A stretch of 64,000 nt of DNA. Origin: Planctomycetota bacterium (GTDB taxonomy: Bacteria > Planctomycetota > MHYJ01 > JACQXL01 > JACQZI01). The position numbers were made by a program, and so were the translations under genes. The DNA lies in assembly GCA_016207825.1 (NCBI GenBank), contig JACQZI010000023.1:1-64000 (forward strand), in the 5' to 3' direction. Shown one piece after another: positions 8,552 through 64,000 of this stretch. Below the pieces are notes generated by a model. That model saw only the letters and a list, made by a program, of their open reading frames with translations, did no database searches and was not told the origin of the DNA. Numbering within the stretch: the first letter of the stretch is position 1; every line of letters begins with the position of its first letter.

Positions 8552-8652
8552 AATCCGCCCTGCTCCGAAATATTATATTAATAAGGAGTTCCCGACGAAG
8601 GAGCGGGGCTAAATCCGTTGAGAGCACGAAATCCCCGATGAGGGGGTGTACA
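8552..8652. repeat. Dispersed 101-bp repeat, copy A
   Basis: An almost identical sequence recurs at 12846-12975. Inside are CCCGACGAAGGAGCGGGG-type and AAATCCCCGATGAGGGGG-type imperfect palindromes. The copy ends just before the ribosome site of the response regulator at 8665, so it forms most of that gene's leader. Short pieces also occur at 11735-11765, 12708-12760 and 15350-15375. Confidence 0.7.
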
Positions 8653-10865: not shown

Positions 10866-10892
10866 TTGACTTTTCCGGTTTTTGTGTATAAT
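10866..10892 (+). promoter_or_regulatory. Promoter, copy 1 of a conserved three-locus module
   Basis: TTGACT (10866-10871) and TATAAT (10887-10892) with a 15-base spacer. The spacer and flanks (GACTTTTCCGGTTTTTGTG, then TAATAGT) are nearly the same as at 11790-11815 and 15465-15490, upstream of fic and of the five-gene operon. Confidence 0.65.
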
Positions 10893-10938
10893 AGTCATAA
10901 TAACTATAAATTAAGTAAATAGAGAGGGGGTGAAAAAG

Positions 10939-11789: not shown

Positions 11790-11815
11790 GACTTTTTCCG
11801 GTTTTTGCGTATAAT
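11790..11815 (+). promoter_or_regulatory. Promoter, copy 2 of the conserved module (fic)
   Basis: GACTTTTTCCGGTTTTTGCG followed by TATAAT at 11810-11815. Only 14 bases separate the -10 from the fic ATG and there is no ribosome site, so the transcript would be almost leaderless. Confidence 0.6.
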
Positions 11816-11829
11816 AGTATAATATAATT

Positions 11830-12489
11830 ATGGCAAAAAACAGATATCAGACAAACGGCTTAGCGGAAAACCAGCCAGCCCGACAGAATTGGTCTGGCGG
11901 GTTCGAGTCCGGTTCAGGCAAGCGGGTCTTGAAGAACCTGCCCGGCATAAAATCCAGGCGTCTTATTGAAAAGGAAGAAACCATCGCCCTCTTTAAAACC
12001 GAAGAATGGGCTTCCGGCTTTTTCTCCAAAACCCACCGTTTTACCGCGGATGATATCCGGAAAGTCCATAAGGTGTTCCTGGGCAAAATCTATCCCTGGG
12101 CAGGCAATTACCGCAATGTCAATATCAGCAAAGGCGATTTCCCCTTTGCCTTTACCCGTCAAATCCCGCATTTAATGGAAAGCTTTTCCCGTGATATTTT
12201 AGCCGAATACACGCCCTGCACTTTCAAGGACAAGGAAAAGATAATAGAAGCCATAGCCGTCGTCCATGCGGAATTGTTATTGATACATCCTTTCAGGGAA
12301 GGCAACGGCAGGCTCGCCCGTTTATTGGCTAACCTGATGGCGTTCCAGGCTGATTTGCCGTCCCTTGATTTCGGGATTATCAAAGGTAAAACCAGGTTAA
12401 AGTATTACCGGGCGATTCAAAAGGCATTGGCCAAGAATTATGAACCGATAAAGGACTTGATAAAGAAAGCTCTTCAACGCGCTTTATGA
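11830..12489 (+). CDS. Fic domain AMP-transferase-like protein
   Basis: 219 residues. Fic proteins transfer AMP (or another nucleotide part) from NTP to target proteins. The catalytic loop HPFREGNGR is intact (H153, E157, N159, R161). It is preceded by the flap-type segment (WAGNYRNVNISKGDFPFA), so an active enzyme is expected. An inhibitory [S/T]xxxE[G/N] helix is not seen inside this protein. Such a motif is present in the small antisense gene whose 3' end overlaps by 16 bases. Residues 15-25 (PARQNWSGG) are encoded by a palindromic element also found in the gene at 51595. No Shine-Dalgarno is seen. Confidence 0.9.
   Translation: MAKNRYQTNGLAENQPARQNWSGGFESGSGKRVLKNLPGIKSRRLIEKEETIALFKTEEWASGFFSKTHRFTADDIRKVHKVFLGKIYPWAGNYRNVNISKGDFPFAFTRQIPHLMESFSRDILAEYTPCTFKDKEKIIEAIAVVHAELLLIHPFREGNGRLARLLANLMAFQADLPSLDFGIIKGKTRLKYYRAIQKALAKNYEPIKDLIKKALQRAL
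11875..11901. repeat. In-frame palindromic element inside fic
   Basis: Arms CCAGCCCGAC and GTCTGGCGGG form an imperfect hairpin inside the fic coding sequence, encoding PARQNWSGG. The same arms with the same mismatch position occur at 18141-18167 (intergenic) and 53185-53205 (inside another gene, same reading phase). Confidence 0.6.
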
Positions 12490-12845: not shown

Positions 12846-12975
12846 AATCCGCCCTGCTCCGAAATATTATATTAATAAGGAGTCCCCGACGAAGGAGCGG
12901 GGCTAAATCCGTTGAGAGTACGAAATCCCCGACGAGGGGGTTGAGAGCACGAAATCCCCGATGAGGGGGTGTACA
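12846..12975. repeat. Dispersed repeat, copy B, with an extra tandem unit
   Basis: Matches copy A (8552-8652) along its length but carries one additional 29-base unit (TTGAGAGTACGAAATCCCCG...), so this part is tandemly duplicated here. The surrounding 12657-13227 stretch has no gene I can support. It also holds smaller palindromes: an AGGCGG/CCGCCT hairpin at 13013-13028 and GGCGG/CCGCC at 13169-13185, just before the kinase. Confidence 0.7.
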
Positions 12976-61316: not shown

Positions 61317-61429
61317 TACCAAATATTAATCACGAATGGCACGAATGAAACCAAATAAGATAAATATAAATTCTTATTCGCGTGATTCGTCATATTAGTG
61401 TGATTCGTGTTAAAAAAACAGGAGAGAAA

Positions 61430-62689
61430 ATGAAATACGACGTAAAAGATTTAAAGCTTGCCGCCAAGGGAAAAGGAAGAATCAATTGGGCAGATAAGCA
61501 CATGCCCGTCTTGCAGATGATTCGGGCGCGGTTTGCCAAGGAACAACCGCTTAAAGGTGTCCGTATTGCCGCCTGTTTGCATGTAACAAGCGAGACCGCG
61601 AACCTGATGAGAACCCTTAAAGCCGGCGGAGCACAACTGGCGCTCTGCGCTTCCAATCCGCTTTCGACGCAAGATGACGTCGCCGCCAGCCTGGTAAAAG
61701 ATTTCGGGATTTCCGTATTTTCCGTGCACGGGGAAGATAACAAGAAATATTATTCCCATATAGAAGCGCTCATCGCCACCAAGCCGCAGATTACCGTGGA
61801 TGACGGCGCGGATGTCGTTTCCACCATCCACTCCAAGCATAAGGATATGATAAAATACATCTATGCCGGCATGGAAGAAACCACCACCGGCGTAATCAGG
61901 ATGCGTGCCATGGCAAAAGACGGCGCTTTGCTTTATCCGATATTTTCCGTAAACGATGCCACGACCAAATATCTCTTTGACAACCGTTACGGCACGGGCC
62001 AATCCAGCGTAGACGGGATTCTGCGCGCGACCAATATTTTATACGCCGGCAAGACCGTGGTCGTCGGCGGTTACGGCTGGTGCGGACGCGGATTCGCCAT
62101 GCGCGCCAAGGGTATCGGCGCGCGGGTGATTGTTACCGAGGTCAATCCGCTTAAAGCCCTGGAAGCCACCATGGACGGCTATGAAGTCATGCCCATGAAA
62201 GAAGCCGCCAGGAAAGGCGATATCTTCTGCACCCTGACCGGCGATATCGATGTCATCACCGGTGAACACTTCCTGGCAATGAAAGACGGCGCGATTGTCT
62301 CCAATTCCGGCCACTTTAATGTCGAGCTCGATTTGGTCGCGCTGAAGAAACTCTCCAAGAAAATCAATAAGAACGTCCGCACCAATGTGGATGAATATAT
62401 CCTCAAAAACGGCAAGGCGATTTATGTCTTAGGCGAAGGGAGATTAGTGAACCTCGCCTGCGCCGAGGGGCATCCGGCAACTGTCATGGACATGAGCTTT
62501 GCCACGCAGGCATTGATGGCTGAATATTCGGTCAAGAACTACAAGAAGCTTTCTCCCAAGGTTTATTTAGTGCCGAATGAGATTGAGGACTGGATTTCCC
62601 GCCTGAAGCTCCAGACACTGGGCGTCAAGATAGACACCCTGAGCGAAAGGCAGAAAGAATATCTTTCTTCCTGGCAGGAAGGGACGTAG
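61430..62689 (+). CDS. ahcY: Adenosylhomocysteinase
   Basis: 419 residues. Hydrolyses S-adenosylhomocysteine to adenosine and homocysteine. Characteristic segments: HVTSETANLMRTLKAGGAQL, ASNPLSTQDDVAA, MEETTTGVIRM, NDATTKYLFDNRYGTGQS, NAD-binding VVGGYGWCGRGFA, and the C-terminal SERQKEYLSSWQEGT. It is the shorter bacterial/archaeal type without the long insertion. The start follows CAGGAGAG. Its last 30 bases, ending with the stop codon, are repeated exactly at 63297-63326, on the other side of the hicBA genes. Confidence 0.97.
   Translation: MKYDVKDLKLAAKGKGRINWADKHMPVLQMIRARFAKEQPLKGVRIAACLHVTSETANLMRTLKAGGAQLALCASNPLSTQDDVAASLVKDFGISVFSVHGEDNKKYYSHIEALIATKPQITVDDGADVVSTIHSKHKDMIKYIYAGMEETTTGVIRMRAMAKDGALLYPIFSVNDATTKYLFDNRYGTGQSSVDGILRATNILYAGKTVVVGGYGWCGRGFAMRAKGIGARVIVTEVNPLKALEATMDGYEVMPMKEAARKGDIFCTLTGDIDVITGEHFLAMKDGAIVSNSGHFNVELDLVALKKLSKKINKNVRTNVDEYILKNGKAIYVLGEGRLVNLACAEGHPATVMDMSFATQALMAEYSVKNYKKLSPKVYLVPNEIEDWISRLKLQTLGVKIDTLSERQKEYLSSWQEGT
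62660..62689 (+). repeat. 30-bp direct repeat, copy 1 (3' end of ahcY)
   Basis: Identical over 30 bases to 63297-63326, with a palindromic core CTTCCTGGCAGGAAG. The two copies bracket hicBA, 637 bp apart. Confidence 0.9.
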
Positions 62690-62763
62690 AGCTTTACCAC
62701 AGAGAACATCTATAGCCCGAGCTTTCTTATGCGTAATTAATTTACCAGTCAATCAATCCGAAA

Positions 62764-62985
62764 TTAGCACTCGAATTCACTGCGGGGGACACCTGATTGC
62801 CTGATTATTGATTGAAGCGTGCCTAATTTTATTTCAGGATGGTTTGGAACAGGAACGGTTATCGTAGTATGTTGAAGTTTTTTCTGCATTACGACATGGC
62901 TTCCGCGTTGGCGGACACGGACAAAGCCCTGTCTGACAAGAATCGCACAAACTTCCCTGCCGGAAAGGATTCGTAATTTAGCCAA
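62764..62985 (-). CDS. hicA: HicA-type mRNA interferase toxin
   Basis: 73 residues. HicA/YcfA double-stranded-RNA-binding-like toxin: SGREVCAILVRQGFVRVRQR, catalytic H30 in RGSHVVM, TITVPVPNHPEIKLGTLQSI, IRQSGVPRSEF. It overlaps the upstream hicB by 8 bases, giving the less common antitoxin-first order. The length is normal. Confidence 0.9.
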   Translation of the reverse strand: MAKLRILSGREVCAILVRQGFVRVRQRGSHVVMQKKLQHTTITVPVPNHPEIKLGTLQSIIRQSGVPRSEFEC

Positions 62986-63199
62986 TCGATACCTCCACCT
63001 GAGTTATATATACTTCGCCATGAAGCCGTTTTTTAATCTCTGATGGAGAAGCCGATTCGAAAAACAGCTCAATTGCCTCGCGGAGGTTATTACGTGCTTT
63101 TTCTATAGTATTTCCCTGGCTGGCGATATCCAGTTCGGGGCACAAAGCTACGTAATCTTTGCCTTCTTTTTCGATAACTGCGGTAAGTTGTTTGAGCAT
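62978..63199 (-). CDS. hicB: HicB-type antitoxin
   Basis: 73 residues. HicB fold (LTAVIEKEGKDYVALCPELD, SQGNTIEKARNNLREAIELF), which neutralises HicA. It is the short form: no C-terminal HTH or RHH domain is visible after VYITQVEVSIG, so DNA binding and autoregulation may be weak or need a partner. AAAGGAGG precedes the ATG. hicB and hicA form a two-gene islet between ahcY and guaB, bounded by the 30-bp direct repeats. Confidence 0.88.
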   Translation of the reverse strand: MLKQLTAVIEKEGKDYVALCPELDIASQGNTIEKARNNLREAIELFFESASPSEIKKRLHGEVYITQVEVSIG

Positions 63200-63296
63200 A
63201 AAATTAAACCTCCTTTTTCTATATTAGTCATTTGTATTATATCCCGCTATATGATAAATGTCAAAGGATTTTAGCTTAATCGGCTAGTTTAAACAG

Positions 63297-63326
63297 TATC
63301 TTTCTTCCTGGCAGGAAGGGACGTAG
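63297..63326 (+). repeat. 30-bp direct repeat, copy 2 (ghost of the ahcY end)
   Basis: Exact duplicate of the last 30 bases of ahcY including its stop codon; it is not preceded by any ahcY-like reading frame. Probably the original 3' end of ahcY, or the distal attachment site. Confidence 0.9.
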
Positions 63327-63433: not shown

Positions 63434-64000
63434 ATGAATAAGATAATTCCGGAAAAAGGGATTACCTTTGACGACATCCTTTTAATCCCTGCCAGATCAG
63501 AAGTAGTACCTAGTGAGGTAAATACCTCCACCCTGTTCTCCCGCCATATCAAGATTAATATCCCGATATGCTCGGCGGCAATGGATACGGTTACCGAGGC
63601 AAACCTGGCTATCGCACTTGCCCAGGAAGGCGGAATCGGCATCATCCATAAAAACATGCCCATCGAGCAGCAGGCGCGCGAAGTCCATAAAGTAAAACGC
63701 TCCGCCAGCGGAATAATCATCGACCCGATTACGCTCCCCCCCACCGAAACAATCGGCAAAGCCAAAAGCATTATGCGGGAACATAATATTTCCGGCATCC
63801 CGATTGTAGAAGAGAATAAGCGTGTAGTCGGCATCCTAACCAACCGAGACCTAAGGTTCCAGAAATCCGATGACAAGAAAATAGAAGAGGTCATGACCAA
63901 AGAACATCTGATAACAGCCCAGCCGGGAACGACGCTTGAAAAAGCCCGTGAAATCCTCCATAAAAACAAGGTGGAAAAACTGCTCCTGGTGGATAAGAGC
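63434..64000 (+). CDS. guaB: IMP dehydrogenase, 3' end outside window
   Basis: 189 codons, open to the window edge. Oxidises IMP to XMP with NAD+, the committing step of GMP synthesis. IPEKGITFDDILLIPARSEV, NIPICSAAMDTVTEANLAIA, QEGGIGIIHKNMPIEQQARE are diagnostic, followed by the start of the tandem CBS domains (IMREHNISGIPIVEENKRVV, ILTNRDLRF). The catalytic Cys loop lies beyond the window. The start is the ATG at 63434; no other in-frame candidate matches the family. The promoter is very close and no Shine-Dalgarno is present. Confidence 0.95.
   Translation, partial: MNKIIPEKGITFDDILLIPARSEVVPSEVNTSTLFSRHIKINIPICSAAMDTVTEANLAIALAQEGGIGIIHKNMPIEQQAREVHKVKRSASGIIIDPITLPPTETIGKAKSIMREHNISGIPIVEENKRVVGILTNRDLRFQKSDDKKIEEVMTKEHLITAQPGTTLEKAREILHKNKVEKLLLVDKS

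Follow-up and report, generated by a model that had tools for sequence, protein, structure and literature searches.

Orphan copies of gene ends beside hicBA toxin–antitoxin pairs: the ahcY locus of a planctomycete bacterium and a possible integrase-free route of insertion

How chromosomal toxin–antitoxin pairs move outside plasmids, phages and integrons is a question raised in a concrete form by a locus near the end of the 64,000-nucleotide stretch of DNA analysed here (the window), where a hicBA pair lies between two copies of the 3' end of the housekeeping gene ahcY. The locus is made up of the following features, given in window coordinates.

61430–62689, plus strand: ahcY, S-adenosylhomocysteine hydrolase, 419 codons, intact (PF05221/PF00670)
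62660–62689, plus strand: left repeat copy, i.e., the last nine ahcY codons and the stop codon
62667–62681: 15-base near-palindrome inside the left copy
62690–63296, no strand assigned: inter-copy segment of 607 bp, with hicBA, its candidate promoter and short non-coding ends
62764–62985, minus strand: hicA toxin gene (PF07927, E = 3.8e-19)
62978–63199, minus strand: hicB-like antitoxin gene, 73 codons, with an 8-bp overlap with hicA
63236–63264, minus strand: candidate sigma-70 type promoter TTGACA-17-TATAAT, before hicB and within the insert (12 of 12 consensus positions)
63297–63326, plus strand: right, orphan copy of the ahcY 3' end, with in-frame similarity from 63291
63434–64000, plus strand: guaB, IMP dehydrogenase, extending beyond the window (PF00478 and PF00571)

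The direct repeat (TATCTTTCTTCCTGGCAGGAAGGGACGTAG) is exact over 30 bp, with 637 bp from start to start. The original prediction that the last 30 bases of ahcY, stop codon included, are duplicated here was correct: with up to three mismatches allowed, the 30-mer occurs at only two sites in the whole 2,885,524-bp assembly, both at the ahcY locus, and in a self-BLAST of the window the pair of copies reached E = 2.5e-8. Leftwards the repeat can be extended to 36 bp with two mismatches (AAAGAA vs. AAACAG), both within one codon (GAA/CAG, E/Q), such that K-E in the gene and K-Q in the orphan copy precede YLSSWQEGT and the stop, and the orphan copy reads in frame as KQYLSSWQEGT-stop. The left copy terminates precisely at the ahcY stop codon and the next base is not the same in the two copies; the homologous gene end is on the proximal side, and the orphan copy has an abrupt start, with non-homologous sequence before it. 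As far as its anatomy goes, the locus has homology at one junction and none at the other. With 30–36 bp, these direct repeats of host sequence are longer than usual transposon target duplications, and inspection of the ends of the 607-bp insert revealed no transposon-type terminal inverted repeats. Upstream of hicBA the reading frame of ahcY has been kept, as had been predicted, and its product shares 61–74% full-length identity with relatives, with the same C-terminus.

Reading-frame and profile analysis likewise agreed with the prediction that only a hicB–hicA pair, both genes on the minus strand, lies between the copies. The short HicB-like reading frame matches PF21748 (UPF0150) with E = 6.6e-4, which is under the Pfam cut-off; in tblastn it matches annotated HicB antitoxins on plasmids of Thermus, Leptospira, and Alicyclobacillus, and a HicB-like partner adjoins HicA in relatives too. 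Judged by its gene content, the pair is a HicBA type II toxin–antitoxin module. Neither the 30-bp repeat nor relatives of HicB were found in the viral contigs searched.

The idea that a 637-bp cassette entered the 3' end of ahcY is only partly borne out. The hicBA pair looks like a small insert at a gene end, and insertion is much likelier than coincidence because the same layout recurs around other hicBA pairs (see below). At ahcY itself, however, insertion is not proven by comparison, since none of the relatives examined has the ahcY–guaB junction: no other case of ahcY next to guaB was found among 40 relatives retrieved via ahcY, eight via guaB and 80 loci of the genome collection. It is metK–ahcY that forms the conserved pair, and guaB does not follow ahcY in any of these relatives. 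The sole congener is a 56%-complete draft in which both ahcY and guaB are lacking. The spacer between metK and ahcY (window 61330–61420) contains, on inspection, many CACGAAT/GTGATTCG motifs that resemble dispersed intergenic repeats.

The original prediction considered integration of so small an element into the end of a housekeeping gene to be unusual, but about a quarter of the sampled hicA loci of the phylum turned out to be flanked by repeats. A BLAST scan (E 1e-4) reaching up to 1.2 kb from the toxin gene in another 114 hicA loci of the phylum gave direct repeats spanning the pair at 29 of them, vs. 26 of 708 random placements inside the same loci (Fisher p = 9e-13). The sample originally comprised 118 loci, 33 of them with repeats, from which four that had been chosen for their known repeats (L273, L277, L282, and L284) were excluded; the 708 control placements still include those of the excluded loci. 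All loci derive from draft genomes, and where the genomes are related their loci are only partly independent of each other. The repeats are 22–305 bp long, and most repeat-to-repeat distances are 460–730 bp, which leaves room for the pair and little else. A sample based on hicB gave a similar picture, with repeats at eight of 31 loci, the ahcY locus included, vs. one of 420 random gaps in other loci. For ParE toxins the pattern is weaker and the sample small (7 of 40 loci vs. 3 of 240 placements, p = 6e-5), and a likewise small non-toxin accessory control, loci of the glyoxalase family, yielded two of 39. This recurrence suggests that selfish gene pairs settle at gene ends, leaving the gene unbroken, without a recombinase of their own.

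What is duplicated is often the end of a neighbouring gene. In a strict test, which demanded in-frame stops that align with each other in the two copies, no more than 9 bp from the end of the homology, and one copy ending a long reading frame, 10 of the 114 loci had duplicated gene 3' ends, both copies stopping at the shared stop, compared with 2 of 708 controls (p = 1e-7). Examples are L206 (GANNL-stop, TGA/TAA), L233 (TGTRI-stop, TAG/TAA) and L235 (F(R/K)KW-stop, TAG/TAA), and three others (L262, L263, and L284) appear on inspection to be of the same type. Protein-coding genes are not the only hosts: at L223 (3615–4257) an intact tRNA-Ala(GGC) gene is directly followed by a hicA pair and then, within about 520 bp, by a 47-bp orphan tRNA 3' end with CCA, and L248 may, by eye, resemble it. 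Three loci (L193, the vsr-like L218, and L241) are mirror cases at gene 5' ends, which fit a homology-driven process rather than an integrase specific for 3' ends. The remaining repeat-flanked loci have non-coding or unassigned duplications, a few of which resemble integron attC sites.

The way in which the copies differ bears on their origin. For 17 loci with a clear frame, the ahcY locus included, the codon differences between copies comprise 74 synonymous and 53 non-synonymous ones, far from the approximately 25% synonymous changes expected without constraint (p = 2e-15); the count includes some bases past a stop codon, an effect that runs against the result. Stop codons, too, are swapped between copies (TGA/TAA, TAG/TAA, and TGA/TAG). 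The synonymous excess indicates that most orphan ends diverged as parts of functional genes before they met, and did not arise by decay of a fresh duplication. At ahcY the copies are one non-synonymous codon apart and are, therefore, too similar to tell donor from resident.

These observations lead us to a reading in which we place even confidence, neither more nor less: hicBA would have been inserted, independent of any integrase, through homologous recombination on one side, at the gene end, and end-joining on the other, and would since have been retained by addiction. The islet would be self-contained, consisting of two genes and their own promoter, with no dedicated recombinase. Donor DNA in which the 3' end of ahcY is joined to hicBA would pair by homology with the resident gene end, and the far end would be sealed by end-joining or template switching within the last codons of the resident gene. 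The product would be a full ahcY with donor-derived last codons, then hicBA, and then the displaced 3' end of the resident gene as an orphan. In the general case the donor would carry hicBA directly behind, or before, the same gene. In this form the route is the most parsimonious one. Loss of the pair by recombination between the copies would be counter-selected, as cells without hicBA would be poisoned. The enrichment of toxin–antitoxin pairs may thus arise because sequence between direct repeats is prone to be lost, a loss that is punished when an addiction pair is involved. If this is true, the housekeeping gene and the addiction pair are locked together. The model presupposes a donor in which hicBA is already beside ahcY, and first arrival is outside its reach; the first step at a new gene end would likely be a plain target duplication, with the pair captured at a break.

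Homology at one end combined with illegitimate joining at the other has been documented (PMC3240628), has been proposed for T6SS immunity gene arrays with displaced effector ends (PMC5361080) and has been inferred at a Helicobacter pylori junction with a 1577-bp duplication (PMC4615327). The cases in PMC3240628 and PMC5361080 share with ours one homologous end and displaced old 3' ends downstream of the new module, but here the module is an addiction pair, which enters downstream of genes that are unrelated, and of a tRNA gene, and leaves the host gene in place rather than replacing it. Against insertion by one-sided recombination weigh the rarity of homology-facilitated illegitimate recombination (3e-10 per recipient cell in Escherichia coli; PMC3240628), the lack of an empty ahcY–guaB site among the relatives mentioned above, and the three quarters of hicA loci that have no detectable repeat. 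The chromosomal hicAB of E. coli K-12, which has the same toxin family but differs from the pair at ahcY in its hicA-first order and longer HicB, also has no flanking direct repeats of at least 18 bp.

It could instead be that both copies derive from a single ahcY target that was duplicated upon insertion, an explanation that we consider unlikely, though it deserves serious attention. The identity of the ahcY copies over 30 bp, with a single codon apart beyond, is in line with it, and so is a pair of loci in two species of one genus, L211 and L256, which carry seemingly the same hicBA insertion behind a gene of approximately 500 codons. The orphan ends of 64 and 31 bp, respectively, are remnants that are identical to the gene in one species and decaying without constraint in the other (two synonymous and five non-synonymous differences). 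Judging from these sequences, the two loci probably go back to one common event with the pattern of a decaying duplicate, which fits plain target duplication rather than one-sided recombination; they form a natural pair for tracking the decay of an orphan copy. Long and variable target duplications have, moreover, been reported for restriction–modification genes (Nobusato et al., 2000; Furuta et al., 2010, as cited in PMC3874152, PMC3031569, and PMC1643837). However, the copies at most other loci differ mostly by synonymous changes and have swapped stop codons, which the decay of fresh duplicates does not give, and the homology usually does not go beyond the stop codon by more than a few bases or stops just short of it, whereas a duplicated single target would in many cases extend past it. 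The restriction–modification insertions are alike in that an addiction-type unit lies between direct host repeats of variable length with no transposase or integrase; they are unlike ours in that here the unit is a type II toxin–antitoxin pair, the repeats are often gene ends at stop codons, and the copies mostly differ as orthologues do and not as copies of one target.

Site-specific integration in trans, by a tyrosine recombinase encoded elsewhere and using attachment sites copied from gene ends as at tRNA genes, would account for the restoration of the gene end and for the tRNA 3' end with CCA at L223, and the genome does contain three tyrosine-recombinase genes. We nevertheless regard it as improbable. 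The cassette had been predicted to have no integrase of its own, and indeed none is encoded in the insert at ahcY, nor in any of the 500–700-bp inserts inspected; the targets are many and different, with gene 5' ends among them, and the repeats vary in length from 22 to 305 bp. The original prediction also pointed to a palindromic 15-base core in the repeat as a putative attachment core. The near-palindromic string exists, with arms of 6 bp and an empirical p of 0.03 for a window 30-mer, but it represents the codons for SSWQE, part of AhcY's strongly conserved C-terminus, and is, being coding sequence, no evidence for a recombinase; ahcY in other phyla carries this DNA unchanged or almost so (e.g., L089, GCTTCCTGGCAGGAAGGGACGTAG, and L059, GCCTCCTGGCAGGAGGGGACGTAA), and acidobacterial genomes are among those with a near-identical stretch. 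Palindromes are not overrepresented in the repeats of other hicBA loci (mean empirical p = 0.69), and the role of attachment core was, consequently, rejected. No core or element ends common to related copies were found either. In L117, which comes from the same order and has the nearest hicBA among the relatives compared, DNA similarity to the pair at ahcY (77% over 62768–63218) is confined to the two genes and the ribosome-binding site. Here, as in L206/L218/L243 and in L223/L275, members of one hicBA lineage lie beside different genes with homology in the pair only, and related units thus have no conserved ends. Integrative elements at the 3' ends of tRNA and protein genes do resemble our loci in that the gene end is restored on one side and the displaced end is on the other, but they differ from these units of only 500–700 bp, which lack an integrase and a detectable shared core and have many targets and repeats of variable length.

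An integron gene cassette was also considered for hicBA at ahcY and rejected, as inspection of the locus revealed no attC-like site. Among the other repeat-flanked loci, a scan that was strict, and probably too strict, detected attC on both flanks in none. By eye, hicBA and ParE pairs lie between attC-like repeats with GTTAGGC ends at L145 (1206–2028) and L304 (3227–4567); they would seem to be integron cassettes and belong to a single family of the phylum.

Still less probable, in our opinion, is that the repeats explain only the retention of the pair, not its movement, i.e., that slippage or unequal recombination duplicates gene ends everywhere and that a toxin–antitoxin pair between the copies prevents their deletion, which would be lethal. 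This would account for the excess of repeats at toxin loci over both random placements and the non-toxin gene, but it explains neither the arrival of a foreign pair between the copies nor their ortholog-like divergence. Finally, it seems very improbable that the right copy is an ordinary repeated element such as a terminator, or that it is left over from another ahcY gene or a product of chance. It does have a terminator-like match (a 9-pair stem followed by a T-rich tail), but its fold is no better than that of shuffled sequence (z = -0.85), for which reason we claim no terminator role; the genome has the sequence at these two sites only, the similarity of the copies far exceeds what chance would give, and other hicA loci repeat the layout.

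Returning to insertion by one-sided recombination, the route would leave a signature that can be measured, namely an orphan end that follows the pair and differs from the intact one mostly by synonymous changes, and is thereby testable. The signature also ties toxin–antitoxin pairs to restriction–modification genes, the other addiction systems, whose insertion with long target duplications has been reported. It may be that toxin–antitoxin pairs are, more generally, minimal integrase-free mobile elements that enter gene ends with a copy of the host terminus that they bring along or pick up, and that such “parking” at gene ends is a general route of their spread, at least in this phylum; we put this forward tentatively and would sooner doubt it than affirm it. 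We found no description of gene-end copies around toxin–antitoxin pairs as a class in the open-access literature, which is slight evidence of novelty. In Microcystis a ParDE-type module downstream of MaOC1 is fenced by identical direct repeats (PMC7935541) and is, like our pairs, a chromosomal toxin–antitoxin pair just behind a gene; its repeats differ, however, in that they are 152 bp long, begin 14 bp beyond the stop codon, include inverted repeats, and are not a gene end.

Two other repeats were observed elsewhere in the window. An intergenic sequence of approximately 100 bp (AATCCGCCCTGCTCCGAAATATTATATTAATAAGGAGT...GATGAGGGGGTGTACA) occurs twice, at 8552–8652, just upstream of a response-regulator-like reading frame, and, 4.3 kb away, at 12846–12975, where part of it is duplicated internally. 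The other repeat, promoter-like and 32 bp long (CTTTTTCCGGTTTTTGYGTATAATAG), is present at 10871–10902, before two small genes, and at 11794–11824, where it directly precedes a reading frame (11830–12489) that is Fic-like by eye and is adjoined by a small one on the opposite strand. Possibly, the latter two constitute a further pair of toxin type, preceded by the duplicated start of a gene.
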